A stretch of DNA of 64,000 bases, from contig CM026574.1 of assembly GCA_015143295.1 (NCBI GenBank), forward strand, positions 9,674,938 through 9,738,937, written 5' to 3'. The translations under genes were made by a program, and so were the position numbers. Of the stretch, positions 890 through 62,243 are shown piece after piece (positions within the stretch are counted from its first letter, which is position 1; the number at the start of each line of letters is the position of its first letter). Source of the DNA: Tetracentron sinense. Its lineage: Eukaryota; Streptophyta; Magnoliopsida; Trochodendrales; Trochodendraceae. Under the pieces are notes generated by a model. The model had not been told where the DNA came from. It saw only the letters and a list, made by a program, of their open reading frames with translations, and searched no databases.

Positions 890-2632
890 TAAGAGTGTAT
901 TCGATTTGAGCTTGGCCAAGTTTGAGCTTGGCTAGAACTTGCTCAAGTTCTGATTCGAGTTCAGATGTTTAGGCTTGAACAAACTTGAATTAGCTTGAAT
1001 TTTATTCCAGCCGAGTTCAGGTTTAGCTCAAGCTTGATTCACATAATTATTTTGTTTAATTTGACATTATTTTAATAAAAGTGTTTATTAATAGATTATA
1101 AAACAATATAAGACATTCATATTCGAAATAAGATGTGGGAGTAGTCCTTCGATACAAAGAGTAGAGAGTTAGATCAGAGTTTATGTTTTTAACTTCTTAC
1201 GTTTCTTGTTATTATTAGCTCTTAAACTTATTTATTAAAAATTATTACAATCTATAATAACGAAAATAAAAAAAAATATTATTTTGTATTAATACAAATA
1301 ACACTATTATATATATATCATTCTACTAATAAAAGTACAAGGAGTATGCAAAACTTTATGGTGACCATACCCTTTAACTTATTATATTCTAAAAATAACT
1401 TAGGGTATAATAAACTTTATGTGTGATGGAGTGAACTCTTTAGTAGAGACGTGGAGCGCACACTGAAAACTACCTGGAAAAGGAAAACTCCTCAATACAA
1501 TGAAGAATCCTAATAGGACTCTAATTGTTTACGAAAGAGGAAATTGTAAATATACAAAATCCTCACTGTGATATATTTCCCATTGTAATTTCATTGTAAT
1601 CTCTAAAAGTATTAGTACAAATCGTATTCTCTCTTACGATTGAGAGAGAAACCAATTTGTAGTGTTCTTAGAATTTCTTTAAAGAAGTGGTGGTAATTGG
1701 TGTGAAGCGATAATGATACTTCCCAATAGAAAAGCACATAGTCCAAGGTGATAATGATACTTCCCATTTTCTTCAACACGAATTTACAATTGGTGTTGAA
1801 CATGTGGCTCAATTGTACGATGCTATGTATTACAAACTCTAAGGTCCTAAATACCATCTAAGACATTGTTTTGAATGCTCTGTTCGGGTTAAGCTCAAAG
1901 TTCAATTCATTCTTCTTTAAACCACAAAAGCTATTCACTTGATTAAAACAGTAGACCAAAATTGCACATTCTCAAAGTACAAAATGGAAAGCAAATAACA
2001 GGTTTCTATATTTTAGGTGTGTTCCAGAAGCAACAAAGTTCAAGAAATAGTAAAATTTTAAATTATTTAAGGATAATGTTAACATCACTTTCTTCTTATT
2101 AAAAAAATTGAGTTTAAGAGAAAATGTAGCTAGGTATTACCCATTGCTTAATAATATAATATGACATTTAATTATTATTAATTGTGATTTTATTTTCAGT
2201 AAAATTGTAGCTTTACCACAAAAGCGAGTAAAATTGTAGCTTTACTATAAAAATGTGTTAAAGAACTTCCTTTTACCATATCAAACTCAAAATCTCAAAG
2301 ATTCGAAGAGGCCGAAAGCTTGATTTTTTAGGTATGTAATAAATATACTTTCTACCATATCAAACTTCATATTATTTGTCTTCTTTTTTTTTTACGTACA
2401 TTTTACTAGTATATATAATATTTTGAGCCGAGTCGAGCTCAAGCTGAGCCAAGCCTTAAACGAATTGAGCTAAATCAAACATGGTATGTATTAAGCTTAG
2501 CTTGTTTAAACATTCAAGCTCTAATAAATGTTTGGCTTGATTTGTTCGAGCCTGAAATGCCAGCTTGGGCTTGGCTCAAACAAATCGAGCTGAGTCAAGC
2601 CAATGAGCTAGCTCGGCTCGAGTGCAGCCCTA
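890..2632. mobile_element. hAT-type non-autonomous transposon with AGCTTG/CTCGAG words
   Basis: The ends are imperfect inverted repeats: TAAGAGTGTATTCGATTTGA on the left, and TAGGGCTGCACTCGAGCCGA reading inward from the right. The element is flanked by a perfect 8-bp target duplication, GTTTCTCT, at 882-889 and 2633-2640. An 8-bp duplication and TAGGG-type ends are typical of hAT elements. The outer 150-240 bases on each side are degenerate repeats of GAGCTTGG, GCTTGA and GAGCTCGG, as expected for subterminal transposase-binding motifs. The 1.3-kb core is AT-rich and has no transposase frame, so it depended on a partner elsewhere. Boundaries are well supported; the internal origin is unknown. 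Confidence 0.8.
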
Positions 2633-2640
2633 GTTTCTCT

Positions 2641-3820
2641 CTTAATGAAGAAATTCTTTATTAGAAAAACAAGAGAGAGTTTCTTTCTATATTCTTCAAA
2701 AAAGGAAACGAGCTATTTTTCTTACTTTGAAACATGTTTATGGAAACATTCATAACTAGTTCCAATTCTATGCATAGGGAGTAAATAGTAAACTAGGTTT
2801 CTTGGTAACTATGGCCTGTTCACCTACACTAAAATTTGGACTAGTATGTTGAAGAAAAGAGGGTACAAAGCTAGTGAAGGGAATACCTATTAACAAAATA
2901 TTTCAATAGCCTTTGTTTTGTTTAGAAGGAAAACATAATTGGGATCGGTAATTGCAGCGCCAATAACCAATTGGAAAACATGATACAGGGCAATTAAGGC
3001 AATTATCAACATAATTAAGAAACAAAATCCCTTCTGACGACTGCTTCGGATCTTGTTAATTGATGTCTAAGCAGCCTGAGATTTTGTGTTAATGATCAAA
3101 CAGTGTCTGATGAGGCTGCAAGCATCACAATGCGTCCTCTTTATGTTCCTGTCTACTCCAGGGACTTGTTAGAAGGCTACACTGGCTTTATAAGCTTCTT
3201 GATTCAATAGAAGTGTTATTATTGTAATAGTTTTCTAACTGCAGAAAAAATGTACCTTCAAGAGTTCATATTGCTCTGATCTAAGAACAAAAAACCATAC
3301 TGCTATCCTATTATTATAGAAAAGAAAGAGGATTGTGGGTACAACTAAATGACTTTAAAGCGAACCAATCGCATAAAAAATAATAATGTCGAATACACAA
3401 GTTGCGACAATGAAAAAAATATACACAATGACATTTACTTTTGGAATCCAAGCTGCACTAATCCACACCATTTAGATATAAAACAGAAGAATGAGAGAAT
3501 AAAATTATGGCCTCATAGTATATTAGTATAGCCAAACAGAAATCAAATATAAGTCAGTTGGCTGGTTGGGAAAAAAGAGAGTATATTTATGTCCTTTTGT
3601 AGTTACTTATTCAGCATATTATAGCAATTCTCATCGTAACCACATTATCAGAAGGTATTAAAGTTGTCTTGGGTACTTGAGTTTTTGTAGCCATTTGTTA
3701 GTAGTTAGAAAGAGTATAATTTTTCTAAGAATATCGCACTGGTAAAGCTCTTCAGTGCAAATGATCATTAGAGAATTCTGATAAACAGTGATGGAGTGAC
3801 AGGCTTTCCTGTCTCAACTC
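2641..3820. other. Intergenic stretch without recognised features
   Basis: No gene-like open frame and no clear repeat was seen. The 60-codon plus-strand frame at 3349-3531 has low-complexity composition and no recognisable domain. Confidence 0.5.
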
Positions 3821-3832
3821 AGCATGATTAAT

Positions 3833-4004
3833 AACCAATCTAGAGTTAGTTTAGTTGGTAAAGTCTCTCGGCACCGCACCAGAGACCTGGGATCCAATCC
3901 CACCTACATTAGGGTTAAGGGGTTTATGGGAGAGGGAGGGCTACCCCCTCATTGTGTAGCCCAAAGGAAAAAAAAAAAGGAAATAATATATTTTTTTTTT
4001 TTAA
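3833..4004 (+). mobile_element. tRNA-derived SINE
   Basis: An A-box-like TAGTTGGTAAAG at about 3852 and a B-box-like GAGACCTGGGATCCAATCCC at 3880-3900 give the internal RNA polymerase III promoter of a tRNA-derived SINE. The body ends in an A-rich tail and T-run. A perfect 12-bp target duplication, AGCATGATTAAT, lies at 3821-3832 and 4005-4016. The element sits downstream of the last exon of the minus-strand RINGv gene. Confidence 0.8.
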
Positions 4005-4021
4005 AGCATGATTAATTACAA

Positions 4022-4939: not shown

Positions 4940-7900
4940 TTATGTAGTATGTGCACCATGCGTTCGTGAAGCCCATATTCCAAAAACAAGAAACCAGAAG
5001 ACAAACAAGATTGCCCAGTACCGTGCAGGTCCATACTTGATTCTAGATAGCACAAACTGCAAGTTCCAAAACAAGATATATCATATTATTATCCATTTTT
5101 CTCACTTATAACCACAGTTTCGAACTAATGAAATGAGGTATATAGCAAGAAAGACAACATCTGTGATCAGAAGCTAAAAATTAAGGAAACAAGAATTGCT
5201 AACATGGTCAAAAGAATTTAATTTCTTTCACATTTGGAAATAGTACTCTAAATGGAAACCTAGATTATGGCTAAATCTAATTTCTAGAGGAAGAGATAGT
5301 ATGCCCATATGTATAGTGTGTCTACTCTAGAGAAAACAATGGTATGAACAAGTATAGCTCATGTACAAACTGCAAACCCTTGAGCACTCAAAAGAACCTC
5401 GTAACCAACCATATTATCAGAAGAACGTAGAGACTAAAGTGATTATTGCCTAATAACATCACACAGCCATAAAAAGTAATACATTTATGAACATTATCAT
5501 CTTGCTCAGCTGCAACACTTAAGCTTTTCAATAAACATGAACGAGTTTGAATTCACATAAATGAAAGGGAGAAAAATAAATTCGTAAAAAAGAAGATTAA
5601 TATAAAAAGTGAGTCCTAGACTCATGAAAAGATTGGGATTATTTATTTTCTTCTTTTTCACTCTTTAGTGTTGATATGTGTACTTTCCTTAAGTTATTTG
5701 TGTTAACATCATTGTAAAAAAACAGAGATTCTTAGTGTCAAGTTTCCAATGGTATTATTAGATAGGAAACTTCTCTTGGAGGTTCTTTATGCAAGGAATC
5801 AGAATTGATCAAATCAACTCGAGGGATTGCTTTCACGTAGATACATTTTTATTCAGCCATGTTTTTTCAGTTTGAAACAGCTTCTTGTGGGTCCATACAT
5901 GATACAACAGTTGGAATCCAAGAACTAGGGTTTGGATGAGATAGGAAGAAGAAAAGAAGTAGGAAGACTAGAGAGTGCTCAATCCCTTAGCCTCCTCTTC
6001 TACTATTATATATATATATGAGATGGATTACAAGATTAAATAAATGCCTTTACAAACAAAGAGGAAATAAGGGCCTAATATAAGTGAGGACATAAATGCC
6101 CTCACACTACAACATAACATAACAATATTCTCAACACTCCCCCGCTCAAGCTGGTGCAAATATGTCTTGCATACCCAGCTTGTCTGTTATGGTGTGAAAC
6201 TGGGGATTTCCTACTCCCTTGGTCAAGATATCCGCAAGTTGGTCCCCTATCCTTACAAAAGGAGTGCAAGTTAGTCCTAGAGCAAGTTTTTCTTTGATGA
6301 AGTATTGGTCAACCTTAATGTGCTTGGTTCGGTCATGTTGAACAAGATTGTGGGCGATGCTAATAGCTGCTTTGTTGTTGCAATACAACCTCATTGGTCT
6401 TAGAGGATGGAGGCCAAGCTCTCTCAACACATCTCCAGCCATAAAAGTTCACATACACCATAAGTCATAGATCTGAACTCTGCCTTTGCACTTGATCTAG
6501 CAATAACCGCTTGTTTTATCTCCTCCAGGAGACAAGGTTGTCACCTACAAAGGTACAATACCCGGATGTAGATCTTCTATCAGACACCGACCCTACCCAA
6601 TCAGCATCTCTATATGCCTCAATCCTTGTGACCATGGAAACCAAATAGGAGACCTTTTCCAGGAGAAGACTTCAAGTATCTGAGAATTCTATACGCAGCC
6701 TTCAAGTGAGAGGTCCTGGGAGCATGCATAAAAGGACTAACCACTCTCATTGAATAGTCTATGTCAGGACGAGTGAGGGAGAGGTAGATGAGTCTGCCTA
6801 CTAGTCTCTAGTATCTTCCTCTATTAGTCAATGAGTCTTCCTTGTTGTCCCCAAGTCTATTTTTTTGCTCAATAAGAGTAGCAATAGGTTTGCATCCCAT
6901 CATCCATGTTTCTTTCAACAGATCAAGAACATACTTTCTCTGAGAAATAAAGATACCTTTCTTAAATCAAGAAACCTCAATTCCCAGAAAGTATTTTAGT
7001 TAGCCCAGATCTTTAATTTCAAACTCCTCTACAAGGTGATACTTTAGCATTTTCAGCTCTTCTAGATCATTATCTGTTATAACAATGTCATTAACATAGA
7101 CTGAGGGCAAACACTTTGTCTTTGCCTCGACTTTGCTTGATGACTAAAGTGTGATCAGTCTTACTCTGCATGTACTCATACTTAAGCATAGCTCTTCAAA
7201 ACTTATCAAACCATGCTCTTAGGGATTGCTTTAGCCCATACATGACTTTCTTTAACTTGCACACCTTTCCTCCAGCTGTAGGAAACTTGGACCCAAGAGG
7301 TGTCATCATGTACACTTCTTCCTCCAGCTCACCATAGAGAAAAACATTTTTTATGTCAAGTTGTTATAGTGACTACCCTTGATTGGTAGCAAGGAAGATG
7401 AGGACTCGAATTGAGTTCATCTTTGCCACAAGAGCATAAGTCTCCTGATAGTCAAAACCAAACGTCTGAGTGTAGCCTTCTACAACAAGTCTGGCCTTGT
7501 ACCTTTCTACAGATCCATCAACCTGATATTTTACAGTGAAGACCCACTAGCTTTTTTCCTTTTAGAAGGTCAACAAGATCTCACGTAGCATTCTTCTCGA
7601 CAAGATCTTACATAGCATTCTTCTCGAGAGCCTGCATCTTCTCACACATTGCTTTCCTCCGTTTAGGATTAGATAGGCCTCGGGAACACTGCGTAGCACA
7701 ATAACAGAAAACAAAGACGAGACAAATGCACGATATGACGAAGACATGGAGTTGTAGGTAACAAAGTGGAAGATAGGATGTTGGGTGCATGTACGAACTC
7801 CTTTTCCAATAGCAATAGGAAGATTAATATCATTAACAACAGGAGACATAGGAGGAATATCAGTGTTACCTGGGATAAAAGGTTCAGACGAGACTTCTTG

Positions 7901-10900
7901 GCAAGGAGGATGAGGTTCATTTCTTCGTCTTGAATGCACCTGCAACTCATTTTCCTTCTCAGCATGAGCAATTTCATTCTTCCATGCTTCATCACTCCCA
8001 ATATCAACTACGGTTATTGGTGAGGAAGAATACAACTCTTCATCCTAATGCTCACTCTGAAGAAATGTCTTCGGGCAAGAAAAGAAATGAGTGATTTCAC
8101 AGAAAGTGACATCAAAAGACACTAAGCATTTTCGAGACGAATGATGGTAGCACTTGTACCCCTTCTAGGTAGAAGAATAGCCAACAAAGATGCATTTTAA
8201 GGCCTTGTGATCAAGTTTGGAGCGGTCAAGGCGATAAACATGAACATAACAAACACACCCGAACACTTTAAGTGGAATAGGAAACATGGGTACCCGTGGA
8301 AAAAGGAGATCAAGAGGGGTTTTGAAGCTCAACAATTGAGAAGGCAAACGATTCATGAGAAAGGTAGCAGTGAGTAAGGCTTCCGACCAAAAAGAGGATG
8401 GAACATGCATAGTAAAAAGAAGGGATCGAGTGATCTCTAACAAGTGACGGTTCTTTCTTTCAACCACACCATTTTGTTCAGGGGTGTTGACACACGAAGT
8501 TTGATGTTCAATCCCATATGTAGGAAAGGTATGAAGAAAGATCACTAAATGTGTACTCACCCCTATTATCAAACCAAAGGACTTTGATGGGGTACTAAAT
8601 TGGGTGTGAACCATGGTATGAAAGGTCTTAAACACAGAATATACATCACTTTTAGGCTTTTAGCTTTCAAAAGGTAAACTCAGGTGACCGGTGAGTGATC
8701 ATCCACAAAAGTAATAAAGTACTTGTAACCAAACAGAGAGATAGTGGTAGATGGACCCCAAACATCAAAGTAAACTTTATCAAAAAGAGATCTACTTCGA
8801 TTTCCATGAAATGAGTAAGAAGAACTACAATTTTCGCAAGTTCACAGGATTCACAATGTAAATTTAAAGGTGAAGAAGATAAAAAAATGGGGAAACATCT
8901 TCTTCAATAACACAAAGGTTCAATAACACAAAGGGTGACCCAATCGTTGATGCCACTGCATCATATCAGGAACATAAGAGCTACTCCCCAAACAAGATTG
9001 ATAAGGCAACTATGGTGAATTATTCAGCAGGTATAAGTCATCTTCCTCATGTCTACTGCCAATAGTCCTCCTCGTCACCAGATCCTAAAAGAGACAATGT
9101 TTGGGAAAGAATGTAACACTGCAGTTCAAAGATTTTGTAATAATGCTCATAGACATAAGATTAGTTACAAAATTAGGAACATGAAAGACAGCTGCAAGGG
9201 TCATAGAGGAAGTAGCAACAACACTACCATTCCAAAAAGAACCATCGGCAACTCTAACTCTATCTTTTCCTGAACAAAGATGATACGAGAGGAAGAGAGA
9301 TGACATACCCTTCATGTGATCAGTAGCTCCTGAATCAATAATCCATGAAGGGTTGATAGTGGAAAGAGAAGCACTGTGTACAAAAGTTGATGTACCTAAG
9401 TGGGCAAATGAAGAAGCAACCGTTGAAGGGGTCTCTAATCGAGACATGAAGTAAAGAAGAGCCTCAAACTCCTCTCGGGATAGTCCAGAACTGGTGCACC
9501 CGGTGGCGGGTGTAGATGAGTGATCCAATGATGTAGAACCAATTAAAGCAACTAAGTGGGCGAAGGTGTCACCCATGCCTCCAAAACGGCCACCAAAGCA
9601 ACCCCCTCGAATTGCAACTTTGGGTGATCTTGAAGGACGACCATAGAGGTTCCAACAAGTCTCCTTGGTATGTCGAGTACGGCACAGTTCTCACACTTGA
9701 GCTTGTCTTTATCATCCATAGTTGGACCCATATTCCTACCTCTACCGCGACCACTACTCCAACTACCTCTTTGAGACATAGTGGCCAAAGTAGACCTCTC
9801 GTGGGTAGAGACATGTTGCACTGCACTTTTCCTACTTTCTTCACTCAACAGATAGGAGTACACTTGATTGAGGGAGGGAAGAGTCTCTCTACTCAACACT
9901 TAAGACCCGAGATTGCTTATACTCAGGAGTCAGACCAGCCAGAAATTCAAAGACACGATTTCATTCTATCATTTTTTTTACTTCCTTGGTATCCCCAGGG
10001 TTGGAGAGTTTAAGATCTTGATAGTGATCTAACTCTTCTCACATCCTCCTCATCTGAGAGAAGTAGGTAGCGAAAGTCTTCTCTCCTTATCGTAACTGGC
10101 AAATACTCTACTGCAATTGATAAATGTATATCGTATTCCCCACTTGGGAATATGTCTGCTCCACAGCTTTCCATAGGTCATTGGCATTGTTTAAAAACAA
10201 TAAACCACCACTGATGTCTGGCTCCATTAAGTGAAGGAGTTATGGCATAACAATAGAATTCTCAGAACTCCACTTCTCATAGTCATCAGAGGATTTGTCA
10301 GGTTCGGCTACCTTCCCAGTAATATAACTCATTTTCCCTCTCTCATTGCTGTATAGCTTGGCTGATTGAGACCAGGCCAAGTAGTTGACTCCATTTAATA
10401 GAACAATAGTAATCCCTTGATTAGGGACATCAATACAATGTCCACTCAACCCAAGTGTAGGGTTTGTCGACTTCCGACATACTTCAATCTTCAAAAACTC
10501 TACCAACAACCAACACCACACTTCAAACAAGCTTCAAAGCAAGCACTACACTTTGCCTCAAGAGGTACACAATGAGTACACACTCCTAGACAAAAAAATC
10601 AAACACTTTCTAGGTGTAAAAGAATCACCAAGCCCTTGCAAGGCACTTCACTAAGCAAAGCATACATCAACACTACAACCATCCTTAAACCACACTATAA
10701 CTCATCAATGTAAGCATCAAACAAGCCATTTCAAGGCTGTTCCAGTCAAAAAACACAATAAAAACCCAAAAACGCAGCATATATAACCCTTTAAAATGGT
10801 CATAACTTTTTCAAATCAAAGGGGTTTTGCATGAGATGACTCCCATATGATAGATAGGAAAAAAAAGGGTCCTATAGGGATAGATTTATCCGTCTAAAAC

Positions 10901-13900
10901 AGATTGCACATGGAGAAATCGAATTTGGTTGGGTTTGATTTTAAAAAGTCTCTTTGGTCTTGGGTAGTGCTCTAATACCAAGTTGGAATCCAAGAACTAG
11001 GGTTTGGATGAAAGAGGAAAAAGAAGAGGAAAAGAAGAAGAGATGTAGGAAGAATAGAGAGAGTGCTTAATCCCTTAGCCTCCTCTTCTACTATTATATA
11101 TATGAGATAGATTACAAGATTACAAAAATGCCCTTACTAACAAAGAGGAAATAAGGGCTTAATATTAGTGAGGACATAAATGCTCTCACACTACAATATA
11201 ACATAATAATGTTCTCAACAACTGAATCAGCAGCAATAGCAACTTAACTTTCAGCAAAGATATATCTTCATGTGGGTCCATACCATGGTTTAAAAAAATG
11301 CCGACACCGTTATGTAAAGCCCGTTACTTAAAGGTTTCGGTGACCTCCGTTACCCGATACCATACCTTTACCCGTTTATCCCGAAACAAAACCGTAATAC
11401 CCGAAACCATTACGTAACGGGCGTTACGCCCGATACGTAAAGGTTTCGGTCGTAGGATTGGGTTCCCAAAATCCCTAAACTCATTCTAAAACCTCATCTT
11501 TGCTTCCTCTCTTCTTCTCTACTTATTCTTAGTACCTTTTTTTTTCTAAAATCCTTTTGTTTTTTGTTAATTAACAACTTGATTTGAAGTTTAATTCATA
11601 AATTTGAAGGAATCCAAGACATGTTCTTTATTTCGGGTATGTTTCAACCCTCGACCCATCTAATTTCCTTATTTCTAAATTTTGAGCTTCATATTGTTTT
11701 TAAAAGTATCTTGTTACTCATTTATTATATGTTTTTTTTTTTTTTTCTATTTATTGGAATTTTTTGGATTTTTTTAAACAAAAAAGAAAAAAAAATAAGT
11801 AAAGGCCGAAACCGTTACGTAACGGCATTACGTAAAGGTTTCGACTGTGTCCGTTACGGTGTTTGAAACCCTTTTTTTAAACCTTGGTCCATACAACTGA
11901 ATCAATAGCAATACCATCTTTCACTTTTTAGCAATAGCAAACTGTTTCCCTCAAGCTGAAAAGTGAAGATGATATTGTGTTGATTCAATTGAATGGACCC
12001 ATATATTATCATCACTAATGCTTTATCCCAAGTATTTTTTTTTGATCGATAATCATGAAAGCAATATTATAAATAAAGCAAAGAAGAACAACAAGAGCAG
12101 AGCCAAAAAAAGAGTTCACAAGTACATGAACCGAAGAAGCAGAAAAAGATGGAAAGACAAACAATTATATCTAGGAGGCCCCCTATAACAGCCCCCCACT
12201 ACCCCTAGAACTAATCATCAAGCCAAGGACCCAGAACCACTACCCCAAGTATTTGGGGTTAGAGCATTCGGCAACACGAATCATTTTCTATTATTCTATT
12301 ATATTAAAAGTTGTAACTTTGGTTCAGTCGTCTGTTATCAAATCATTCCTCAGTAACTTCATCCACGTCATTTTTGCCTTCCCCTTTCCCTTTTAAAGCT
12401 TCAACTTGCACAAATTCGTCTCTTCTTAATGGAGCCATTAGTGGTCTTCGTTGAACATATCCAAATCATCTCAATTGATTCTTCCTTATTTTATCACCTA
12501 TTGGAGCTACTTCCAGATTCTCTCGAATGCGCTCATTTCTGATCTTATCTTTCCTTATCTCCACACTCATCCATATCATCATTCTCATCTCAACAACACT
12601 AATTTCATTAATATATTGCTTCTTAGTATTTATTCTCTATTTCTCATTCCTGGGTCGATTGTAATTGCACTCTTGAAATTATGCATAGAGGTCTTTTCTA
12701 AAACGATAGGGAAGAGGTAAGACAGTACCATCTGGTGGAATCGAAGGAGGTTTGTCGCCCAATTAGAGAAGGGGACTTGGGCATAAGATCCTAGGGTAAT
12801 GACTTGGGCTCTCCTTGGGGAATGGTTATGGGGATTTGCAGAGGATTCCCTATGGAGTAAAATAATAGTAGCCAATATGACAGTCTCTTGGTTTGGGAAC
12901 CGAAAGAGGTCAAATAATCGCATGGAGTCGGCCTATGGAAAACCATTGCTCGAAGGTAAGCAGAGTTCCACAAGCATATTTCCTTTACAGTTGGGTCGGA
13001 TGAGAAGTTAGGTTTTACGAGGATCGGTGGTATGGTGATAATCGACTGAGGAATCAGTTTGGTAACACATTCTTTGGCAATCAAGAACAGTGTTCGATGG
13101 TTTCATGTTTTGAGTCTCATAATGGTATTGCCATGTTGGTTCCCCGACTGAGGAGAGTTGTTTGATTGGGAGATGGAGAGTTATAAGTCTCCTGAGTCTT
13201 CCTTACCAGTTTCTCCCACTCATGGGGACTAGGGACAGACAGTTATGGTCTAGAGAGAGTAGAAGGTAGTTTACTGTGAGATCATATTAAAGACTATGAT
13301 GGGTAGTGAGGTTTCCTCTTTCCTATACAAGTTGTGTGGAACCCAGGAATTCCATCTACAATCGGTTTCTTCCTCTGGACAGCCTGCTGAAACATAATCC
13401 TCACCCTAGACCATCTAAAGTGTTGGGGATGGAGTCTGTCCAATAGATGCTTTCTTTGCATCGCTGAGGAGTCAGCTAATCATGTCCTACTTTACTGTCC
13501 TCTGCTTAGTAGGTTATGGTTCCATTTCCTATCTCTTCTGAATCATGTGGGCTGTTCCATCCATGTTTTGTGACTGTGATACTCAGGTTGTGTTTATGAG
13601 ATTGCTTCCGGGAGCATCTTCTCAGCTGGGAGTTTCGAAGGAGAGAAATAGAAGAGTGTTTCACAATTCATTTCTCTCTCCATATTGTACAATCCGCATC
13701 ATCTCAGATTGTTTACTTGACTGGTGTTTGATTAGAGAAGATTTTATGAAGCCTAACTTTTTATCGTTCTTGTTGCATCCTCGTTAGTTTGTGGTACAAT
13801 CTCTTTGTATTGTTCGTTTTTCTATAGCTTTTCCTTGTTCACCTTTTGGTGAATTCTTCCGTACTACATGTTATTATATATACATTGATCATCTTTACCG

Positions 13901-19409: not shown

Positions 19410-20189
19410 TACATTAGATAAAGTTCCCTTGAATTCAGAATGTATGTTTTGCAGCCCTCTAAATCACTGCACCATTTTGCTTCAACATTTTCACTTAATT
19501 AAGTCAACCTGAGGCCAATTCTCCCATTGTGCACTTCTAAGAAACAAACACCAAGTAATAGTATTCCCAAACACGATTGACAGGCAGTATAAGCTTGAAA
19601 TCCAAATATGAAAGGAACTCAAGGATTTTAACATAATCCAGGCCCTTGGGACAGCTTAAAGAGAGGGCTTAATTAGATATTCAGGAGAAGATGAAGCCTC
19701 GAACTTCTTGTCTCCTATTGAAAGAACCATTTACAATATCTGATCATCTAAACCCATCAGATGCGCTTTGTTCTGAAATTTCAGGCAATACCAATGCTTA
19801 ATTGGACAATTAATGGAACCTCAATTACTGAACTGAAAAGTGGAAATCAGTAGAATGGCTTAAGTACTAAAATCTGAAGGTATAAATATGCCATTACATA
19901 TGCAATCATCTATTTAAACATCATGTCATATATCTTAAAAACACTGTAAATGGATTTTATTGTGAAATATGTACATTGAAATAATAATTCTTGGAGTTTT
20001 TATACTTGTAAATGTAAAATTGCACATCATGGACAAGCCAATCAAGAATATTCACAAACCATCATGTTATGCCAATTGAAATTGACATCTTAAGCAACAA
20101 AATCAATGATGTAGAACAAGAAAACCTATGATTATTCATGTGATCGTAAGGTACCCAAAGGAATAAATAACACCATTTTGATACAAATG
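19121..20189. repeat. Tandem duplication, unit A (contains the functional exon 1 start)
   Basis: This unit matches 20190-21436 base for base over most of its length. It spans the N-terminal third of RINGv exon 1 and about 700 bp upstream. It runs from near GTCACTGTCACCTTTCAC at 19123 to AACACCATTTTGATACAAA at about 20189. The two units are head-to-tail with no spacer. Confidence 0.85.
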
Positions 20190-20305
20190 ATATCACTGTC
20201 AACACCTTTCACAACTTCTTCGCTATTAGAGTTCAAATCCTCATTGATTTTCAATATTTCCTATAATGGAGGGGTGATGCCCAAGAATCCTAATGCAGCG
20301 TCCCC

Positions 20306-20421
20306 CCTTTTTTTGTCATTGGTAATCAAAAAGATATATTAATAAAAGTAAAAGAGAAGTACAGAAACATAAGTATAGAACATAAATGAGTTTACAGTAT
20401 CGTAAACTAAAAACAGTAGGA
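20306..20421 (-). mobile_element. Short LINE 3' tail inserted in duplication unit B
   Basis: On the minus strand it ends ATTACCAATGACAAAAAAA. The matching place in unit A lacks it, so the insertion postdates the duplication. A possible short target duplication of GCAGC-type sequence flanks it. Confidence 0.65.
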
Positions 20422-20475
20422 GAGCAGCACTTATCTACACACTGGCACACACAACAAGTTGCCAAGCATGCTTCC

Positions 20476-20670
20476 TTATCTACTGTCTACACCCGGATGC
20501 GATATACAGTAGGTACCTAAATTATCACTTTCCATGGCTGAGCATATATCTTCATTACTGACTCCACCATTGATTGTCTGTAACTGATCTTCCTTAAGGC
20601 CCATTACATTAGATAAAGCTCCCTTGAATTCAGAATGTATGTCTTGTAGCCCTCTCAACCACTGCACCAT
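20476..20670 (-). pseudogene. Truncated copy of RINGv exon 1 (N-terminal 64 codons)
   Basis: It reads MVQWLRGLQDIHSEFKG, then a stretch matching residues 1-40 of the functional protein ([20 protein letters not shown] and on), and then stops before the RING-CH finger. It keeps an upstream MVQWLRG start that is broken in the functional copy, where the fourth codon is TGA. The piece cannot make a RING finger. It could act as an upstream open frame or a cryptic exon if the transcript passes through it. Confidence 0.75.
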
Positions 20671-21053
20671 TTTACTTCATTATTTTCATTTAACTAAGTC
20701 AACCTGAGGCCAATTTTCCCATTGTGCACTTCTAAGAAATTTACACCAAGTACTCGTATTCCCATACACGATTGATACGCAGTAAAAGCTCGAAATCCAA
20801 ATATGAAAGGAACTCAAGGGTTTTAACATAATCCAGGTCCTTAGGACAGCTTAAAGAGATAGCTTAATTAGATATGCAGGAGAAGATGAAGCCTCAAACT
20901 TCTTGTCACCAATTGAAAGAACTGATTTACAGTATCTGATCATCCAAACCCATCAGATATGCTTTGTTTTGAAATTTCAGGCAATACCAATGCTAAATTG
21001 GACAATTAATGGAACCCCAGTTACGGGACTGAAAAGTGGAAATCGGTAGAATG

Positions 21054-21155
21054 GCTAAGTACTAAAATCTGAAGGTATAAAAATGTGCCATTACATATAC
21101 AATCGCTAAGTACTAAAATCTGAAGGTATAAAAATGTGCCATTACATATACAATC
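21054..21155. repeat. Perfect 51-bp tandem duplication
   Basis: Two adjacent copies (21054-21104 and 21105-21155), apparently identical, begin GCTAAGTACTAAAATCTGAA. Unit A of the large duplication has only one copy, so this is a recent slippage or repair event in unit B. Confidence 0.9.
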
Positions 21156-33095: not shown

Positions 33096-33214
33096 CTCTC
33101 AGTACTTTGGACTTTGTTCAAGGTGCTAAGAATACACTATGGGGTTAAAAATTATGTTAAGTGGGCTAGTAGGTTTGGTTAAACCCAGATTTGTCAAGGA
33201 CTATCTTTGTTTTG

Positions 33215-33700: not shown

Positions 33701-33704
33701 GCCC

Positions 33705-34700: not shown

Positions 34701-34704
34701 CTTG

Positions 34705-36819: not shown

Positions 36820-37390
36820 CTTATATGGCTAGTACCCGAACTATGAAATGGATGGACATACTAGCGGCTTGTTATTCTTGCTTGTCTTGTTTAACTAGTA
36901 CCTGAACTATGAAATAGACGAACATACTAGGATCTTGTCTTGTTTTATTAGTACCCGAACTATGAAATGGATGGACATACTAGCGTCTTGTTATTCTTGC
37001 TTGTCTTGTTTAACTAGCACCCGAACTATGAAATGGACGGGCATACTAGGTTCTTATCTTGTTTAACTAGCACCCGAACTATGAAATGGACGGGCATACT
37101 AGGTTCTTATCTTGTTTAACTAGTACCCGAACAATGAAATGGACAGACATACTAGGATCTTATCTTGTTTTATTAGTAGCCGAACTATGAAATAGATGGA
37201 CATACTAAAGTCTTGTTATTCTTACTTGTCTTGTTTAACTAGCACCCGAACTATGAAATGGACGGACATACTAGGTTCTTGTCTTGTTTAACTAGTGCCT
37301 GAACTATGAAATGGACGGACATACTAGGTTCTTGTTTTGTTTAACTAGTACCCGAACTATGAAATGGACGGACATACTAGCGGCTTGTCA
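36820..37390. repeat. Minisatellite, 53-66 bp period, about 10 units
   Basis: Units read ACTAGTACCCGAACTATGAA, ATGGACGGACATACTAG and a CTTGTCTTGTTT spacer. Longer units add TTATTCTTGCTTG. It is internal to the solo LTR. Confidence 0.9.
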
Positions 37391-41895: not shown

Positions 41896-42284
41896 TTGTG
41901 TGGGCTTTGTTTGATATTTTGTAAATAGGATTGATTCCTTTATTCTAGTTAGGAATACTTGGTGCATCTGTGAATGAGTATTGGGTTATTCCTATCCTTA
42001 TTACTTGCACAACTTTTCTAGTTTGGTTTAGAGTCTTGACCAAAAGCCCGTCTAGATTTGGTTTTTTTCCATTTTATTTGTCAGGTTCTTTTAGAGTCAC
42101 TCATACTTGTCTATTTTCTTGAGCGATTCATTCTTGCTAGGTTCATGCGAGTCGTTCAACCCTGTTGACTCACTCGAGTCATTGCTTCCTTTTTCACCCA
42201 TTAGAGTTTGCCAACCCTGATGACTTATACGGGTCACTCATCCCTTGTCGACTCATCTGAGTCACCCAATCCTAAAAACTAAGG

Positions 42285-45840: not shown

Positions 45841-46292
45841 AAGGAACAGGCCAAGAAGCACTACAAAGAACTGGCATTCACCAACACTAGAGTTTATGTA
45901 ATCTATGCAGATTTGTCTCAAGCTCCTATCGGCCTGAGCTTATGCAACACAGATTTATGGTTAATGAATCTTTCTAATCATTTTGACTAAACCGTAGATG
46001 GATGCCTATGATGAGTACTTGTCAACAAATCCATCAGTTTGAAATGGAAAACTACTCATGAAACACGCAGGTAGCAGCTACAATATAGTTATTTGATAAT
46101 GTTTGCTATTTATTACACAGTACAGTGCTTAAGTATCTTTGTTTGGGCAAGTAATTAAAATATGGTTACTGAAACAACATTTGTTGATTTCCCTTTGGTA
46201 GAGGAAGGAAAGGAATTTAATATGAACAAACTTATGGTAGTTTGAGTTTATGTAAATGAAATATTTCTTAAAGCAATTTAATGTTGATGCAG

Positions 46293-46750
46293 GTAAGTAT
46301 TACATTGTTGATGCCGGCTATCCTAACATGACTGGGTTTCTTGCTCCCTACCGCGGTATTCGATATCATCTTCAAGACTTTCGTCGTGGAAATGCGAGAA
46401 GAACGGCAAAAGAAAAATTCAATTACATTCATTCCTCACTTCGGAATGTAATTGAACGTTGCTTCGGCGTGCTAAAAGCCCGCTTTCCGATCTTGAAGCA
46501 AATGTCACCTTACTCCTTGACCACCCAAAGAGATATAGTTGTTGCTACAATGACTATCCACAATTTCATCAAGCAAGAGGCCGTAAATGATAAGCTCTTT
46601 TGTGAATATGAAGATGATGCTTGGGTTAATGAAGAAGCTGATGAAGAAAATGGAGCTAACACGGGAGATATTATCCTCCAACATGAGGACGAAGAGATGG
46701 GTGCATATAGAGATAGACTTGCACAAGCCTGTGATGAAGTCTATGATTGA
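46293..46750 (+). CDS. PIF/Harbinger transposase, C-terminal exon (DDE_Tnp_4 type)
   Basis: An open exon follows a TTGATGCAG acceptor and ends at TGA 46748-46750. It carries YYIVDAGYPNMTGFLAPYRG, IRYHLQDF, HSSLRNVIERCFGVLKARFP and MTIHNFIKQE, the hallmark C-terminal motifs of plant Harbinger transposases, then an acidic tail. The frame is uninterrupted over about 150 codons. The N-terminal catalytic part was not found upstream, so the protein is unlikely to be active alone. Confidence 0.85.
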
Positions 46751-52200: not shown

Positions 52201-55200
52201 TCGTCACTTGGGTGCCTCTATAGGCGAGCGAAAGTCACCTGGTCCTCTTTAGTATAAGTCTATTGACAATTTATTTACATAAAATATCATTTAAGTAAAT
52301 GATTTTAAATTTACTATCATTTACTTAAGATATTTATATGTAAATAAGTTTAAGCCTCCCATTTGAATTCAATAAATATTATCCTAAATCTAAATTCCTG
52401 AAGAATAAAAAGCCATATTTCCAGTTCAAGAACAAAACCCACTTTTTAAGGATTACGTCAAAATTTCAATTTGTAAATGCTAAGATATTTTTAAAATTTT
52501 AAAATTTCATACTTCTACCATATCAAAACCAATGTGTCCATAACTAGACCAGTTGTTGAACCGCCTGGGTGGCCGGTTCCCGGTTTAACCAGTTAAACTG
52601 GTTCGGTCGTGCCCTTTTATTATTAATTTTTTTTTCCTTTTCCTGACTGGTTCTTCCGGTTCTTATCACTAGTTCTTCAGTTGAACCTACCGGTTCCCGG
52701 TTTCTGGCCGGTTTTTAAGAGTCCGGTTGTAAGGGTTTTGGGGACCAATTGACTGGCCGGTTTCCGGTTATACCGGTTCAACAAGCCGGTTTGATTCGGT
52801 TTTCAAAACACTGATTAAAACATTACTAAAACCGAAAAGTCTAGGAAGAAGAGTCTCATATTTTAGTTTTCAAAAATCCTAGGAAGTTTGGATTATTATG
52901 TGTATACTGTATATATTAATATTATATATATGTATATATATATATATATATTAATTATTTTTATCACCTAGGCATCGCCTTACCTAGCCAGGCTTAATAG
53001 CCTAGGCATTGCCTAGCTGATTTGACTACACTAACGTAATCCTATCCACTATTCGTGCATTTAATGCACTACAGTGAGAACTATATAAGGTCTCACCTCG
53101 GTGAGAGTATGTAGGGATAACTCCTCTACGTTGCAGTCGATAAATGGCTTCCATATGGAGGGAAAATTCCTTGTACTAGTCAGTCAAAGGATGCCATCGC
53201 CATGTGTCCTAAAATCAAGGACATAATCTCCCTCTGAAAAGGGATTGTGCCACAGCAAGATCACACCAATTATCGAGTGTCATTTGGCGGGCCATAGGTT
53301 TCGAAAAACCTCTCACCACTCTTTTCAGCTGATAGACAATCAGCCTAGAGGCTGCCACATGGCCTAGATCCATCTAAAGGGATCCTCCTTATGCTCGACA
53401 TGCACCACATGATACATGTCTAATGAGTGCATGCACTTATGTACACAGTATCCTCTCTTGTTGAGAGGATAATGATTTGGGCAAGAGGAGGGGGGGATTC
53501 ACCCTCTCGTCATCCTTATCCTCTCTATTTAGTAGAAGACACCCATCAGATCGACAAGTTGTCCCTTCACGAGAGGACATTCCATCCCCCAACTACATAT
53601 GACCTGGCAAATATTCTATCCGGTCCGGGATGCATGCCCTCTCTAACAGAAGATGATTCAATCCCATTTCCCCGTTAGGAAGTGGTCAATTGCTCACTTT
53701 CTTGTAGAAAAGAGAGGAGAGTCCCTTAGAGAAGGGATTTTTGAAAATTTTTTTTTGATCGGTAGGGACGTTTGAACTGGCAAGGAAGCTCATTCACCAG
53801 TGTATCAAGAGGAGACTCTCATAGTCTTTAGAAGATTGTGTTAGAGCAGGATAATATGGAGAATGCAAGGTGAGCCCACATAGGGCTTCTTGCATCCTCT
53901 TTCTTTTGCAATATTCACCGATATATGTAAAATCCTCCTCTTGGAGGCTCCATGTAATCCTAAAGGGGAAACGGTAGATATCAGTGGAGAGAATTTTGCA
54001 TATTTTATATTCCTGTTCCCTCTCTTCTTTTCTTAATTAGTGGTTATCTTTTAATGGGAAGTATGGTCTCTACATGAAAAATTAACTTGGTTGATCTCAG
54101 TATCAACTAGGTATATTTAACACCAAAATGATTTCATGTATGCTCAAAATTTGTGTTGTTGTGCAACTCTTTTACCTCACTTCTCTATTTGCAACTTAAC
54201 TATCCATGTCTATGCAGATATATTTCTAATGGCTATACCCCTTTTTGTTGTAAGTTCTATATAAAAAAAGTGACCTCTGTCTGAAATTATTAATCTTGTT
54301 TCTGCTCTTGATTTTGATATATTCTTCATCTCCTCTGACAGGTGTGGGCATTGTAAGAATCTCGCTCCAGAGGTAATCAATTTTCTTATCTTAAATGTTC
54401 TCATAAGATATTGTCCCCATGCTTTGGTTACTAATGTTTTAGACAGTCATACATATGCTCAGTTGGCTGACAGATTTGTTTCAACTTTAAACATGTTCTT
54501 TGGTTTGTAGTATGAGAAAGCTGCATCTATATTGAGTAGCCATGACCCTCCAGTTATTCTCACAAAATTTGATGCCAATGATGATGCAAACAAAGAACTT
54601 GCTAGTGAATTTGAGGTTAGGGGTTTCCCCACGCTTAAGATTCTAAGAAATGGAGGAAAGAATGTTCAAGATTTCAAAGGTCCTAGGGATGCTGATGGTA
54701 TAGTTGCATATCTGAAGAAACAAGTTGGTCCTGCATCTGCTGAAATAAAATCTGTGGAAGATGCTGGTAGTCTTATTGGCGACAAAAAGATTTTCATTGT
54801 AAGTGCTATACTGCTATGCGTTTAATTAATTTTCTGTCTCCAACCATTTTCTTCAAGGAAAATTTAGCTAGTAATAGCTTCTTTGAACATTCTTACAGGT
54901 TGGGGTGTTCTCAGAATTCTCCGGGGAGGAATTTGAGAACTTCACAACTCTAGCTGAAAAATTGCGTTCTGACTACGATTTTGGTCATACGTTGGATTCC
55001 AAGCTCCTTCCACGAGGGGAATCATCAGTTAGTGGGCCCACAATTAGGTTGTTCAAGCCATTTGATGAACTCTTTGTTGATTTCCAGGTATTGCAGGATA
55101 TCCATTCTGGAGTCTCCCTTTTTATCATTCTTTCTTATTGACAATGTTGGATTTCTACGATTCTTAGGTTATCCCATGAAGTAAAATGTGCTATCTTGTC

Positions 55201-58200
55201 GGTATCATGTGCTTGCAGGATTTTCATTTGGATGCTATGGAGAAGTTTGTTGAAGAAGCTAGTGTGCCTATTGTGACTCTTTTCAACAAAGATCCAGATA
55301 ACCACCCATTTGTTATCAAATTCTTCAACAGTCCCAATGCCAAGGTAAATAGCTTATTTTGTTTGACGAGTGAACAGAATCACAAATTTAATGTCATTAT
55401 TTATACTTTAATCCATTTAATTGTTGGATGACTGAAAAAAACTCCTCCCTTTTCTACTGATTTAGTGGTGGTAGATGTGGAGATAAGTGAATATTTGTTA
55501 TATGATTTTTTCTCAATGTTTTCAAACATGAGCTAGAGCTTGAAGTGGCAATGGTGTGGGTTGGCTCAATCTGTTCAGAATGGTGGCTCAAACTTGCTCT
55601 ACTCGGTGGTGTCAGCTGGATTAATAAATAAAATACTTAAAACCATAGTTCAAAGACTCACCTGAGTAACTCGGCCGAGTTACTCGACTCGACTGAATTT
55701 CGAGTTGAGTCGCCTCAAAACTCGAAGGATGCACTATTTATTGAGTTACTCGGGTGACTCGGTCTAGTCAAGCCGATTTTTTCGACTCGCCAGACTAGAT
55801 TGAGTCACAGGAGGATATTTATATCATTTTTTAAAACCTAACTCTAATGTCATACTATTTTTGCATTATATTTTTTTGGTCTATAAAGACAACCTACTAT
55901 GAGTTCTGTTACACCTAGTTTATAGGTTTGAGGTTGTAAAACTAGTGTACTTTGAGTTCTTTTAACTTGGTTTTTAAGTTATTACATATATATTCCGAGT
56001 TGGCCAGAGTCGAGTTTCTTTTTCGAGTTTTCCGAGTTACTCGACCCGGCTAATTTTCGAGTTGAGTTTTTGTGTTTTTGAACCATGATTAAAACTACTA
56101 AGAAATGAGAGATTTTTTGTTTCAAAAACAATGACAATAATATAAGAATATTTTAAAAATATAAAAACAATTAGAAGCACGTATTTTCACCAATGGTATC
56201 TGGTCCTTAAATTCATTGAGAAAATAAGAAACAATTAGACACATATTTCCTGTCATGTCACATGTGAACATGTATCTTATGAAGGTAATTTGATGACGAG
56301 GTGCTAACTTGTCCATTTTACTTTTAAGAAAAATAAGTTTGGAGACTATGGTTTTGAAGTTGGATTTGGTTTATTTAAAAAAGTGTTCAAACCTTGATAA
56401 AAGCCTAAAACACACTCATCAGAAAAGAAAAAGGTGGGTGGAGGTAACACCTAAGGCTGTCATATACACCAAACCCCTTGTTATTTCTCCACTTGGCATT
56501 GGCATTGGCATTGGCATTGTTTTCCTTGTTTCCTTAGTTAGGGTGCCTCTGGAATGGCCATTTGAATAACTTCTACTGGGCATTTCCAAAGAACTCTTTT
56601 ACAGAAATAGTAGAAATTGAAACGGAGTGTTTATTAAATAAGCCTTGAAATGAAATTTCTTCTTTTAGGAACCTCAAATCCTTGATTTTAGATTCTCACA
56701 AAGTAAGTTCCATTGCTTATTTGAGAAAACACACTCTCTCTCTCTCTTTCTATATATATATATATATATATAAGTCCCATTGCTTATTCAAGAAAACTCT
56801 CTCTCTCCCTTTATATATATATGATTCTCCTCCACAGCCGCGACCACTCCTATTGTTCACCAGCATCCAGTGCATGTAATTGTTGCTGCCTGTTCCACCA
56901 CCATCGCTGATATCACCAAGATGTAATTATTGTCGCTATGGTCACTATGACCATCACCAACACCTAACACCACTAGGCCACCTTTCATCATTAGAGCTTC
57001 ACGAGATAAGAGTTGTAAATTCGAAGTGGATAGTGGTTTGTCTGAATTCGTATCAATTACATATTTGACTATCCGTATTCGATTAAATATCCAATGGATA
57101 GTGAAATAGAGCATTTGTATCTGACTCCTATTAAAATATTTGAATTCAAATAATATTCGAATTATTCGATTACGTTAATAAAATTTTAAAGAAAGAAAAT
57201 GTAAAAAAATGCAAAAAACATTTTAAATTTTTTTAAAAATGACAAATTACTATTTTATTTATTGTTTATATATTAATAGTTATAATTTAATGTCTTAGAA
57301 TTATGTAAAAGTTAAATATATTAATAAGGGTATTTTAGTCTTATGCATAGTGACAAAGTTGGGGTTTGGGAATAATTTAGCAAGAGTCAAGTTCGGAAAA
57401 ATTCGGAAAAATCCAGGAAATATTCGGGAACAACTCGAGAAGAAAATAATAATTCTAAAAAGATATCCAACAATTTGATTAGATGATATACAAAATAAGC
57501 AGTTTACTTTGTCAAACTAAAAGAGTTATTGCAAAATTTGTGAATAAATCGGGAATAATTTGCGAAATTCGGGATTAAATCGCAAAATCCGTGAATAATT
57601 CGGGAATCAATTGGCAAACCTAAAATTTGCGAATAATTCGGCACACCTAAAATTCGTGAATAATTCGCGAATTTTAAAAAATTCGGAGAATTTTGTTACT
57701 AACTCTTATGAACTATCTATATATATAGAAAAATATTATATAATCGGTTGGATTATAAGCGGAGAGTAAAAGTACTATTTCTATTCGCTTCGATGGATTC
57801 CTATTTGGATAATTATCCGAGTAAAAGAATTTGGATACGGATATTATCCGTATCTGTTGACACCCACATGCTACTACATATCCATCATCACCGTCGTCGG
57901 CATGCCACTGCCAACCACACCATTTTTAGAAAGTGAAGATATCTGACAGTGTGATCTTCTTTTCTCATTTTGAATGTACAATAATCAAATTTTGCTAACA
58001 ACATAACTTATCTTTCTTCACTAGTTCCTTGCTAGATGGGATTTGGCAACATGAATTCTGTCCAACTATTTAGTCTATCAAGAGCCATATCTTTGGTTGA
58101 AACATTTGTTACTAAAAAAATTCACCGTGTTTATATCGGCTTTCCGCTTTCCCTGAGTCTTCAACTTGCACTTGCTCCTAATGGCTATCGCCATTAGTCT

Positions 58201-60496: not shown

Positions 60497-60665
60497 AGAC
60501 CGTTTTTAAAAGGCGTGAGAGGCTTAAGCCTCAAGGCGAGGCTCAAGGAAAATGCCTTGATCCTCAATTTTGAGGCTTAAATCTAACAAGGCTAACCCCT
60601 CAAACTGTGAGGCTCGCTTTTATGTTTGAGGCATGTGCCTCATGGCTCATACATTAATCAAAAAT
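60497..60665. repeat. AGGCTTAAGCCTC-word repeat
   Basis: A dense run of AGGCTTAAGCCTCA, AAGGCGAGGCTC and TGAGGC words, preceded by GTTTTTAAAAGGCG. It matches the style of the other word elements. The right end is lost, and no target duplication was found. Confidence 0.5.
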
Positions 60666-60875
60666 AGGGTTCTAGCCACATGACTGAGACTTACCAAGAT
60701 TTTACCATGACTGTAATTTTAGAGAGACGCGAAAGGAACCTTAACAATATTTTTTAAAGGTGTGTGCCTTGTACATTAATAAAATAATAGTTCTAGTTGG
60801 GATTGCACATGGGCCGGGTTTGGGCTTGATTTTTGGTGATTTTTGAATAGGCCCAACCCGGATCGACATTTATAA

Positions 60876-61236
60876 GAGATCAAATCATAATCAATCGCGA
60901 TTGAACTCGTGGAGAGTTCAATCACACCCACAGCCATAGGTCAACACAGTTCCTTGTTAACTCCTGTTAACTGTGATTAAAATTCACTAACCCTTAGGGT
61001 TCAATAATCTAACCTTGGGTTTTAAAGAAAAATATTAAAAAAATATTTAACTCTGGTTAAGAACTCTTAACCCTTAGGGTATTTCTTTTACTTCTGAAAA
61101 CCAAGGTTAGATTATTGAACCTTAAGGGTTAGTGAATCTTAACCACAATTAATAAGGGTTAATAGGGACATGTCTTGACTTGTGGGTGCGATTGAATTCT
61201 CCCCGAGTTAAATCGCGATATGCTGTATTCGATCTG
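60876..61236. mobile_element. Mutator-like foldback MITE, complete copy
   Basis: The arms begin GAGATCAAATCATAATCAAT on the left and CAGATCGAATACAGCATATC from the right, and share CGCGATT.GAACTC, CTAACCCTTAGGGTTCAATA and GGTTAAGATTC-type cores. ATTTATAA flanks it on both sides (60868-60875 and 61237-61244). It belongs to the family of 42516-42827. Confidence 0.75.
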
Positions 61237-61783
61237 ATTTATAAAGACTTTTAAGCCCATGTGCAACCCTAGTTCTAGCCACATAACTAAAACTTAAACA
61301 TTAAATTAAAAGGTGTCTGCATCATAAATTCTTTTATCGGTAAAAAAATAGATTTCCTTTTTCTTTTATATTTTTTTTATTATCAATTAATACTTAATTA
61401 TTATGTCTCATGTATTTAGGCTTTTTGAAACCTTGTTGAGTATATTTCAACCTAATTTTTTATTGTAGACATTATAAAGGTTGGAGCCATTGTCTAACAT
61501 ATGTAGTTGGTGGATTACTTTGTTGGAATCCAAAATCAATCACATGATTGAACATTATCCGTAAATATAAATTTTAGCTTTTCTAGCTTTTTAAATTTTT
61601 TTATGGCTGAATAATTTTAGAGTAGTGATTAGCCCACTCCGCATTTGACTACATAATCAAATGCCTTCCCATTTCATCCCCTTCAATTGTGGTTATGTCG
61701 CGATCCAAAATCCCATCTAGTTAAAAATGGAACTTTGACTCACAACATTGCATTATCTTGAACATATAAGGCATACTTAAAAT

Positions 61784-62243
61784 CATAGTTCAAATACCCG
61801 AAAACTCGACTCGACTCGAAAGATAGCCGGGTCGAGTAACTCGGAAAACTTGAAAAAAAACTCGACTCGGTCCAACTCGAAATATATATGTAATAACTTG
61901 AAAACCCTGGATTAAAAGAACTTAAAGTACGCTGGTTTTACAGTCCCAAACCTATAAACTATGTTTAACAGAACCCATAGTAGGTTGTCTTTGTAGACCC
62001 AAAAGAAAATGATGCAAAAATAATGTGACTTTCGAGTTTAGGTTTAAACAAATGTTAAAAATACCCTTCTGTGACTCGACCTGGTCCGGCGAGTCGAAAA
62101 ACTCGGCTTGACTCGACTGAGTCACCCCGAGTAACTCGGCAATAGTGCCTCCTTTGAGTTTTGAGGCGACTTGACTCGAAATTCAGGCGAGTCGAGTAAC
62201 TCGGCTGGGTTACTCGGGTGACTCGCCGAGTTTTTGAACTATG
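61784..62243. mobile_element. hAT-type MITE built from ACTCG words, copy 2
   Basis: The ends CATAGTTCAAATACCC and (inverted) CATAGTTCAAAAACTC are flanked by a perfect 8-bp target duplication, CTTAAAAT (61776-61783 and 62244-62251). The words ACTCGACTCG, GAGTAACTCGG and CCGAGT fill both flanks. It is in the opposite orientation to the copy at 55644-56087, and inserted into the LTR at 61696. Confidence 0.85.

Follow-up and report, generated by a model that had tools for sequence, protein, structure and literature searches.

The window analysed here, a 64,000-nucleotide stretch of the 1.16-Gb Tetracentron sinense genome (C24:9674938-9738937), contains five delimited elements that are non-autonomous hAT elements (miniature inverted-repeat transposable elements, MITEs) with dense subterminal repeats of a short sequence word. 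Their positions, target-site duplications (TSDs) and terminal inverted repeats (TIRs) are as follows:

882..889, left TSD GTTTCTCT of the 890 element, exact
890..2632, hAT-type element with the word GCTCGA, interrupted by an insertion; ends TAAGAGTGTATTCGA / TAGGGCTGCACTCGA; exact 8-bp TSD
~1319..2409, insertion of ~1.09 kb within the 890 element, skipped by most genome relatives; borders approximate
2633..2640, right TSD GTTTCTCT of the 890 element, exact
11276..11283, left TSD GTCCATAC of the GTTACG element, exact
11284..11886, + strand, hAT MITE with the word GTTACG; TIR CATGGTTTAAAAAA / CAAGGTTTAAAAAA; exact TSD GTCCATAC
11887..11894, right TSD GTCCATAC of the GTTACG element, exact
52530..52813, hAT-type element with the word AACCGG/CCGGTT; ends CAATGTGTCCA / CAGTGTTTTGA; TSD ATCAAAAC/ATTAAAAC, one mismatch
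55644..56087, + strand, hAT MITE with the word ACTCG; TIR CATAGTTCAAA / CATGGTTCAAA; TSD CTTAAAAC/ATTAAAAC, one mismatch; 8-copy alignment
61784..62243, - strand, second ACTCG hAT MITE copy, inverted relative to 55644; exact TSD CTTAAAAT

An earlier note, made from the letters of the window, had reported identical or near-identical flanking 8-mers, and this was borne out for all five elements, three duplications being exact and two having one mismatch. Short TIRs were evident at 11284, 55644 and 61784, where 10–11 of 11 bases pair; in a base-by-base comparison, both ends of each of these elements agree well over ~14 bases and then diverge. The TIRs of the 890 element start TA/TA and those of the 52530 element CA/CA, and both pair less well. 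A blind scan of the window for 8-bp TSDs around TIRs starting with CA or TA returned 13 pairs (9 once low-complexity sequence is excluded), versus 0–7 (mean 2.7) in 10 dinucleotide shuffles. The top scores outside low-complexity sequence belonged to 11284, 55644 and 61784, while the 890 and 52530 elements, with their weaker TIRs, were missed. Over 264 kb (the window plus other genome sequence), a TIR and TSD scan gave 8 hits versus 4 on the reversed sequence, a word-cluster scan listed many clusters, and a regular expression for a hAT motif found nothing.

Genome DNA searches, in which the best 40 candidates were scored per query with the query itself included, placed the elements in repeat families. 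The 55644 and 61784 elements belong to one family in opposite orientation (inverted repeats I2, I3, I5, I11 and I12), which has 39 more full-length or nearly full-length copies at 87–91% identity among the best 40 of 3118 candidates. For the GTTACG element, 39 more such copies at 91–93% identity were recovered (best 40 of 2239 candidates). We fetched 20 copies with their flanks (10 ACTCG, 10 GTTACG) and placed their borders where TSD and TIR mismatches were fewest near the BLAST edges. Of the 20 copies, 19 had an 8-bp TSD, exact in 16 cases and with a single mismatch in 3, and no two of these TSDs were alike. Among the GTTACG copies, nine of ten had a TSD with at most one mismatch; no 8-bp TSD was found for the tenth, L057, which was left out of the GTTACG counts. 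Such differing duplications indicate transposition, since slippage leaves no such pattern. The hAT target consensus is nTnnnnAn, and T occupied position 2 in 8/10 ACTCG and 3/9 GTTACG duplications, with A at position 7 in 7/10 and 6/9, respectively.

The earlier assignment to the hAT class is supported by 8-bp TSDs, short TIRs and ends that stay fixed among the genome copies. The earlier note had named copies lacking 8-bp duplications, or slippage without fixed ends, as speaking against its view; checked in the ACTCG and GTTACG families, neither point refuted it. For the CCGGTT and 890 families, the fixed ends are the only part of this comparison that is visible. The CCGGTT element had 39 relatives at 68–78% identity (best 40 of 441 candidates), 16 of which matched over the full length at 68–75% with fixed ends. 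A further AACCGG element lies at L031:9702-9933, with the exact TSD ATCCTATC.

The interval 890–2632 had been described as a single element. In the genome search, however, the main match lay within query positions 1–445 in 36/39 non-self loci, and the last part (from ~1512 or later) was also matched in 31/39, which resolves the interval into a ~650-bp element, whose relatives have fixed ends, and a ~1.09-kb insertion. The insertion (1319–2409) has matches of its own on C16 and C9; no clean TSD was found around it, only TA-repeat matches.

A copy-number estimate from the end pattern TTTGAACYATGNTTAAAA (374 hits) was rejected because seven of eight loci cut out (L001-L004 and L006-L008, on C1) were another repeat, outside the ACTCG family, with the form ...CAAACC(C)TTTGAACTATG followed by GTTAAAA-like sequence. 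An apparent target preference for NTTAAAAN was likewise an artefact, imposed by the same search pattern.

Distribution, conservation and decay of the words

Each element is strongly enriched in its word relative to the rest of the window: AGCTTG occurs 10 times in the 890 element (0.84 expected), CGTTAC 7 times in the 11284 element (0.02 expected), AACCGG 11 times in the 284-bp 52530 element (0.03 expected), and ACTCG 15 and 22 times in its two window copies (~0.6 expected). This agrees with the earlier description of elements packed with one word each, with two amendments: AGCTTG looks like a decayed form of GCTCGA, and the words are subterminal in the ACTCG and GTTACG families. The words occur in both orientations and at mixed spacings, with many inverted pairs at short spacing; in the 11284 element, GTTACG forms palindromic pairs (GTTACGTAAC), and CCGTTA and CGAAAC are also present.

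The genome copies share this density. ACTCG was found 12–25 times per copy versus 1.44 in shuffles (18 copies, with the nested locus L010 left out), and GTTACG 4–10 times versus 0.52 (10 copies). Counted by tenths of the element, ACTCG words numbered 74, 63, 50, 37, 12, 0, 0, 15, 69 and 42, and GTTACG words 15, 5, 20, 0, 0, 0, 0, 0, 20 and 11. At the 3′ side of the ACTCG elements, words lie mostly in one orientation (113 '-' versus 13 '+' in the last three tenths), and those at the 5′ side are mixed. Four elements with the word CGTATC, met by chance, had 17/17, 14/14, 17/18 and 26/27 of their sites (CGTATC/CGATAC) within 250 bp of an end, where the terminal 500 bp amount to about half of three of these elements and 22% of the fourth. 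Taken together, these profiles define the words as subterminal arrays flanking a word-free or nearly word-free middle in the ACTCG, GTTACG and CGTATC elements.

Word bases are better conserved than their surroundings once CpG positions are set aside. Non-CpG bases of ACTCG matched the consensus at 0.970 versus 0.926 for other subterminal bases, with 0/265 circular shifts reaching as high, and those of GTTACG at 0.993 versus 0.966, with 4/235 shifts as high. CpG positions within the words decay: transitions there affected 0.101 of cells versus 0.018 at non-CpG word bases for ACTCG, and 0.078 versus 0.000 for GTTACG. The 890 element shows the same process in its word spectrum, with 4 intact copies of GCTCGA against 9 and 10 of its two deamination products; the remaining 16 single mutants together account for 8 (7.5 expected). 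Because the deamination products exceed the other single mutants, AGCTTG and GCTCAA look like CpG-decay forms of one word, GCTCGA, and not like separate words. The word-count spectrum of the ACTCG copies shows a similar tendency. The claim of strong selection for word count in the earlier note is therefore too strong, given that words are being lost by CpG decay, a loss that is clear for the 890 element and for copies of the ACTCG family; any selection would act on lineages that are still moving.

CpG is otherwise scarce in this genome. The observed/expected ratio was 0.57 in the 264 kb examined, compared with 0.98–1.97 in the GTTACG, CCGGTT, ACTCG and 57006 sequences; at 0.67 and 0.51, respectively, the 890 element and the AGGC piece were closer to the background. 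Eight of the 11 words met contain CpG (ACTCG, GTTACG, CCGGTT, GCTCGA, CGTATC, ATTCG, ATTTCG and GCCCGA), a count that is biased because a word that is scarce elsewhere stands out more readily.

Two loci bear on the relation between word and core. L010 (1508 bp), at first a candidate for a longer ACTCG element, was rejected as such because a nested insertion explains its length: it contains a 1011-bp CGTATC-word element flanked on both sides by the same 8 bp of the ACTCG core (TTTATAGG). This filled site with a duplicated target is direct evidence of precise insertion. The ends of the CGTATC elements, CATGGTTTAAA/CATGGTTCAAA, resemble those of the ACTCG family. The second locus, L043:5921-6373, lies in the 200 kb next to the window; its TSD (GATGAAAT) is exact, its ends are CGGTGTTTTAAAA/CATAGTATTAAAA and hold all 13 of its ACTCG words, and its BLAST matches to the 18 window-family ACTCG copies fall in the ends only. 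A genome search with this element returned 40 places including itself (best 40 of 1523 candidates), nearly all about full length.

A longer CGTATC candidate, L022 (2272 bp), was set aside after inspection by eye as a composite with other repeats. It contains a GC-rich, gene-like stretch (ATGGCGACGGCGACATCGACGGC), possibly a captured gene fragment.

Transposase loci and their arrays

We listed 150 hAT transposase loci, scored from 1709 PF05699 candidates, and read 600–700 bp of flanking sequence on the 3′ side of 14 of them. Seven of the 14 (L066-L070, L077 and L079) form an AGGGCC group, 75–100% identical where aligned before the array. All seven flanks end in an AGGGC/AGGGCC array that stops at CTTTGACA[CG]CCCTA, after which each continues into a different flank. 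AGGGC occurs 4–19 times in the last 135–230 bp versus 0.9–2.6 in shuffles, and no AGGGCC was found beyond the CTTTGACA[CG]CCCTA end in the seven flanks. The TAGGGCTG end of the 890 element is common to several of these arrays. A second group (L074 and L075, 2/14 flanks, 98.6% identical) runs into a different array, composed of GCCCGA and GAACTC, with two GCCCGA each in the part read; the array continues past that part. The two groups differ further in how long their listed domain matches are (243–246 versus 261–264 bases).

Genome-wide searches with the array pieces pointed in the same direction. Among 40 scored matches of the AGGGCC array, 11 begin 163–287 bp after a listed hAT domain on the same strand, versus 0.08 expected within 8 kb; one of the 11 is the query, one had already been read, and nine are new. 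The other 29 may follow transposases outside the 150 or may be non-autonomous. The second array piece had 37 genome matches, and four of the best six begin 570–589 bp downstream of same-strand listed domains; these four include the query and one match already read. The flank arrays and this proximity together lead to the conclusion that two transposase-bearing families each have a word of their own.

The same proximity measure was applied to the window repeats, with 0.08 expected within 8 kb for each of five of the six copy sets. One of 39 copies of the 890 family (on C13) and one of 39 AGGC copies (on C4) lay within 8 kb of a listed transposase, and both are weak leads. For the ATTCG repeat, 0/39 scored copies lay within 8 kb of the 150 listed loci.

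What the words may do

We consider it likely that the five window elements are hAT MITEs moved in trans and that the word specific to each family is read by its own transposase lineage. A hAT transposase would act in trans on each non-autonomous element, recognizing the family word, which is repeated in both orientations over the outer 100–200 bp of each end. The N-terminal BED zinc finger would be the likely reader of the word and the short TIR the site of cutting, so that different words would correspond to different transposase lineages; copies that no longer move would lose their words by CpG deamination. Because the arrays match published hAT anatomy, we infer that each word may be the site of a transposase BED finger; binding of the words by protein, recognition by the finger and a dedicated transposase for each window word are all predicted from the sequence. 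The proposal of the earlier note that each word is the binding site of a different transposase draws partial support from the subterminal placement of the words, which is that of hAT transposase sites, from the conserved word bases and from the two transposase families with different arrays, but none of the window words was paired with a transposase. On the whole, the observations of that note were partly confirmed and its interpretation partly supported.

The published anatomy comes from several systems. According to passages of PMC3260210, the maize Ac transposase binds a hexamer, AAACGG, that recurs within the terminal 200 bp of an element with an 11-bp TIR; three copies were reported to be required, although some Ds1 elements without them still move. 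Ac/Ds resembles the window elements in its TIR, its non-autonomous derivatives and its subterminal repeated hexamer, and differs in its words and TIRs and in that the transposase of Ac is known. Passages of PMC3143072 report that the Arabidopsis Tag1 transposase binds AAACCC and TGACCC, and give CG/AATTCAT for Herves. Tag1 shares the subterminal hexamers, but those passages describe different motifs at its two ends, whereas the window families have one word at both. In the animal elements Hermes and Tol2, as described in parts of PMC10368747, BED fingers read short subterminal repeats, a head-to-head quasi-palindrome lies beside the TIR, and the ends are asymmetric, all of which recall the window elements. 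The Hermes fingers bind AAGT repeats, including a head-to-head pair; these words are different and fewer, each Hermes end having five within its first 55 bp (PMC10368747). The plant hAT MITEs BniHAT-1/2 are likewise short, multi-copy and non-autonomous with an 8-bp TSD, but the word “subterminal” is absent from the text of that paper, and its relevant passages describe no word arrays (PMC7385995).

Several results weigh against this transposase-word reading. Five of the 14 flanks (L071, L072, L073, L076 and L078) showed no array within 600–700 bp, either by eye or in counts of 11 words; the ends of these five loci may lie further out, or the loci may represent dead copies or genes of the host. 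The two transposase groups were defined by shared 3′ DNA and not by a protein tree, and each is effectively one family; the loci were read on the 3′ side, so TSDs, 5′ arrays and intactness lie outside that reading. Among the scored copies of ACTCG, GTTACG and CCGGTT (39 for each), none fell within 8 kb of any of the 150 listed transposases. The copies behind the conservation figures were the best BLAST hits or were chosen by pattern, and so are not a random sample. In the GTTACG family, CpG bases of the word are kept no better than the other CpGs (0.904 versus 0.928), and the word counts show no clear excess of CpG-decay forms. Finally, passages of PMC3260210 report that some maize Ds-like (Ds-l) elements with AAACGG repeats did not move, which implies that words alone are insufficient for mobility.

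The strongest of three alternatives, which we regard as unlikely, is that the MITEs carry the arrays as sites for host proteins (transcription factor sites or promoter elements) and that the transposase does not read them. Plant MITEs with transcription factor sites have been described in passages of PMC12595863 and PMC7385995, and the words are short and often palindromic. Against this, the words occupy both ends and not the middle in the profiled families, the two transposase-bearing families have arrays of their own near their 3′ ends, and the presence of one word on unrelated cores fits a requirement of transposition better than captured sites.

It is considerably less probable that the arrays are decayed tandem or simple repeats, grown by slippage in an ancestral element and then passively copied. 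Some words do stand in tandem at 5-bp spacing (ACTCGACTCG; 42 '--' and 14 '++' pairs), and part of the ATTCG repeat (57549–57667) was scored as short tandem repeats. Tandem Repeats Finder, however, reported no array over any of the five delimited elements, and slippage accounts poorly for words in both orientations at mixed spacings, for arrays at both ends of a word-free middle, and for word bases conserved beyond their neighbours. The idea that the words are parts of imperfect long inverted repeats or hairpin stems of foldback hAT MITEs is the least probable of the three, since the largely uniform orientation of the 3′ ACTCG words that favours it is offset by the mixed orientation of the 5′ words and by ends that diverge after ~14 bases.

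Elements of this type, hAT MITEs with subterminal repeats, are already known, and the interest lies in their modularity and in the chance of a finger–word code. Two unrelated cores whose TIRs differ both carry ACTCG, and very similar TIRs accompany different words (CATGGTTCAAA-type with ACTCG or CGTATC; TAGGGCTG-type with GCTCGA or AGGGCC). We tentatively suggest, at somewhat less than even confidence, that the subterminal word is a swappable module, the BED finger and its word evolving apart from the cutting domain and the TIR, and that CpG-containing words may act as methylation sensors that decide copy mobility. If words are swappable, these families would constitute a natural panel of BED finger–word pairs.

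To our knowledge, few hAT elements have an established protein–word pairing. A literature search, with most subscription journals and Repbase outside its reach, found no account of several co-resident plant hAT families set apart by dense words. Many co-resident families with dense, different words offer matched comparisons of BED fingers against words, and this genome could reveal a recognition code and show whether movement is controlled by CpG methylation of the words.

Other repeats and features of the window

Two further repeats with dense words were delimited:

57346..57701, high-copy, fixed-edge repeat with ATTCG words, within older GGATA-word sequence; hAT possible, unproven
60504..60693, high-copy, fixed-edge repeat with AGGC/GAGGC words; unassigned to hAT

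The earlier note had grouped both with the five elements, at 57006–57870 and 60497–60665, and in neither case is a hAT origin established. All 40 non-self matches of 57006–57870 (best 40 of 5519 candidates) fell within query positions 335–697, so the repeat itself is ~57346–57701 and the longer interval is composite; no matching 8-mer was found at its outer ends. The repeat at 57346–57701 has at best a one-mismatch 8-mer with a poor TIR. The AGGC repeat starts within 2 bases of query position 38 and stops within 2 bases of position 226 in 27/39 non-self loci, which places its edges at ~60504–60693. No TIR or TSD was found near the ends first given, and the revised edges were judged by eye. One AGGC copy, C4:8597177-8597374, lies ~4.6 kb upstream of a hAT domain (C4:8601763-8602011) in an 840-aa open frame, and may represent a partner or a chance association.

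Other word-bearing elements were encountered outside the window families. An ATTTCG-word element with the exact TSD GGCCTATG lies at L033:54-463. An apparent nested pair at L042:2915-4181 and L042:3120-3780 consists of a CTAGGC-word element (TSD AATGATTG/AATTATTG) inside an element with the exact TSD GTTTGAGC.

The remaining features of the window are of other kinds:

~6000..10500, - strand, copia-type retrotransposon-like frames, with PF25597 in the frame 8168–8659
18384..19463, frame 100% identical to a Tetracentron sinense protein across 84% of its length, in keeping with the source tree
19130..21056, local direct duplication with a spacing of ~1.1–1.2 kb, overlapping an exon of a RING-CH gene
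33199..33706 and 36762..37389, tandem arrays with units of ~55 and ~53 bp, respectively
46256..46747, + strand, open frame with DDE_Tnp_4 (PF13359, E 8e-14) and Plant_tran, a PIF/Harbinger-type transposase fragment

A dispersed repeat of the AACCCTAAGGGTTAGTGAATCTTAACCACAATTAA type also occurs in both orientations, at 42281, 42690, 47939, 61103 and 24069 (inverted), and similar sequence is present inside L022.

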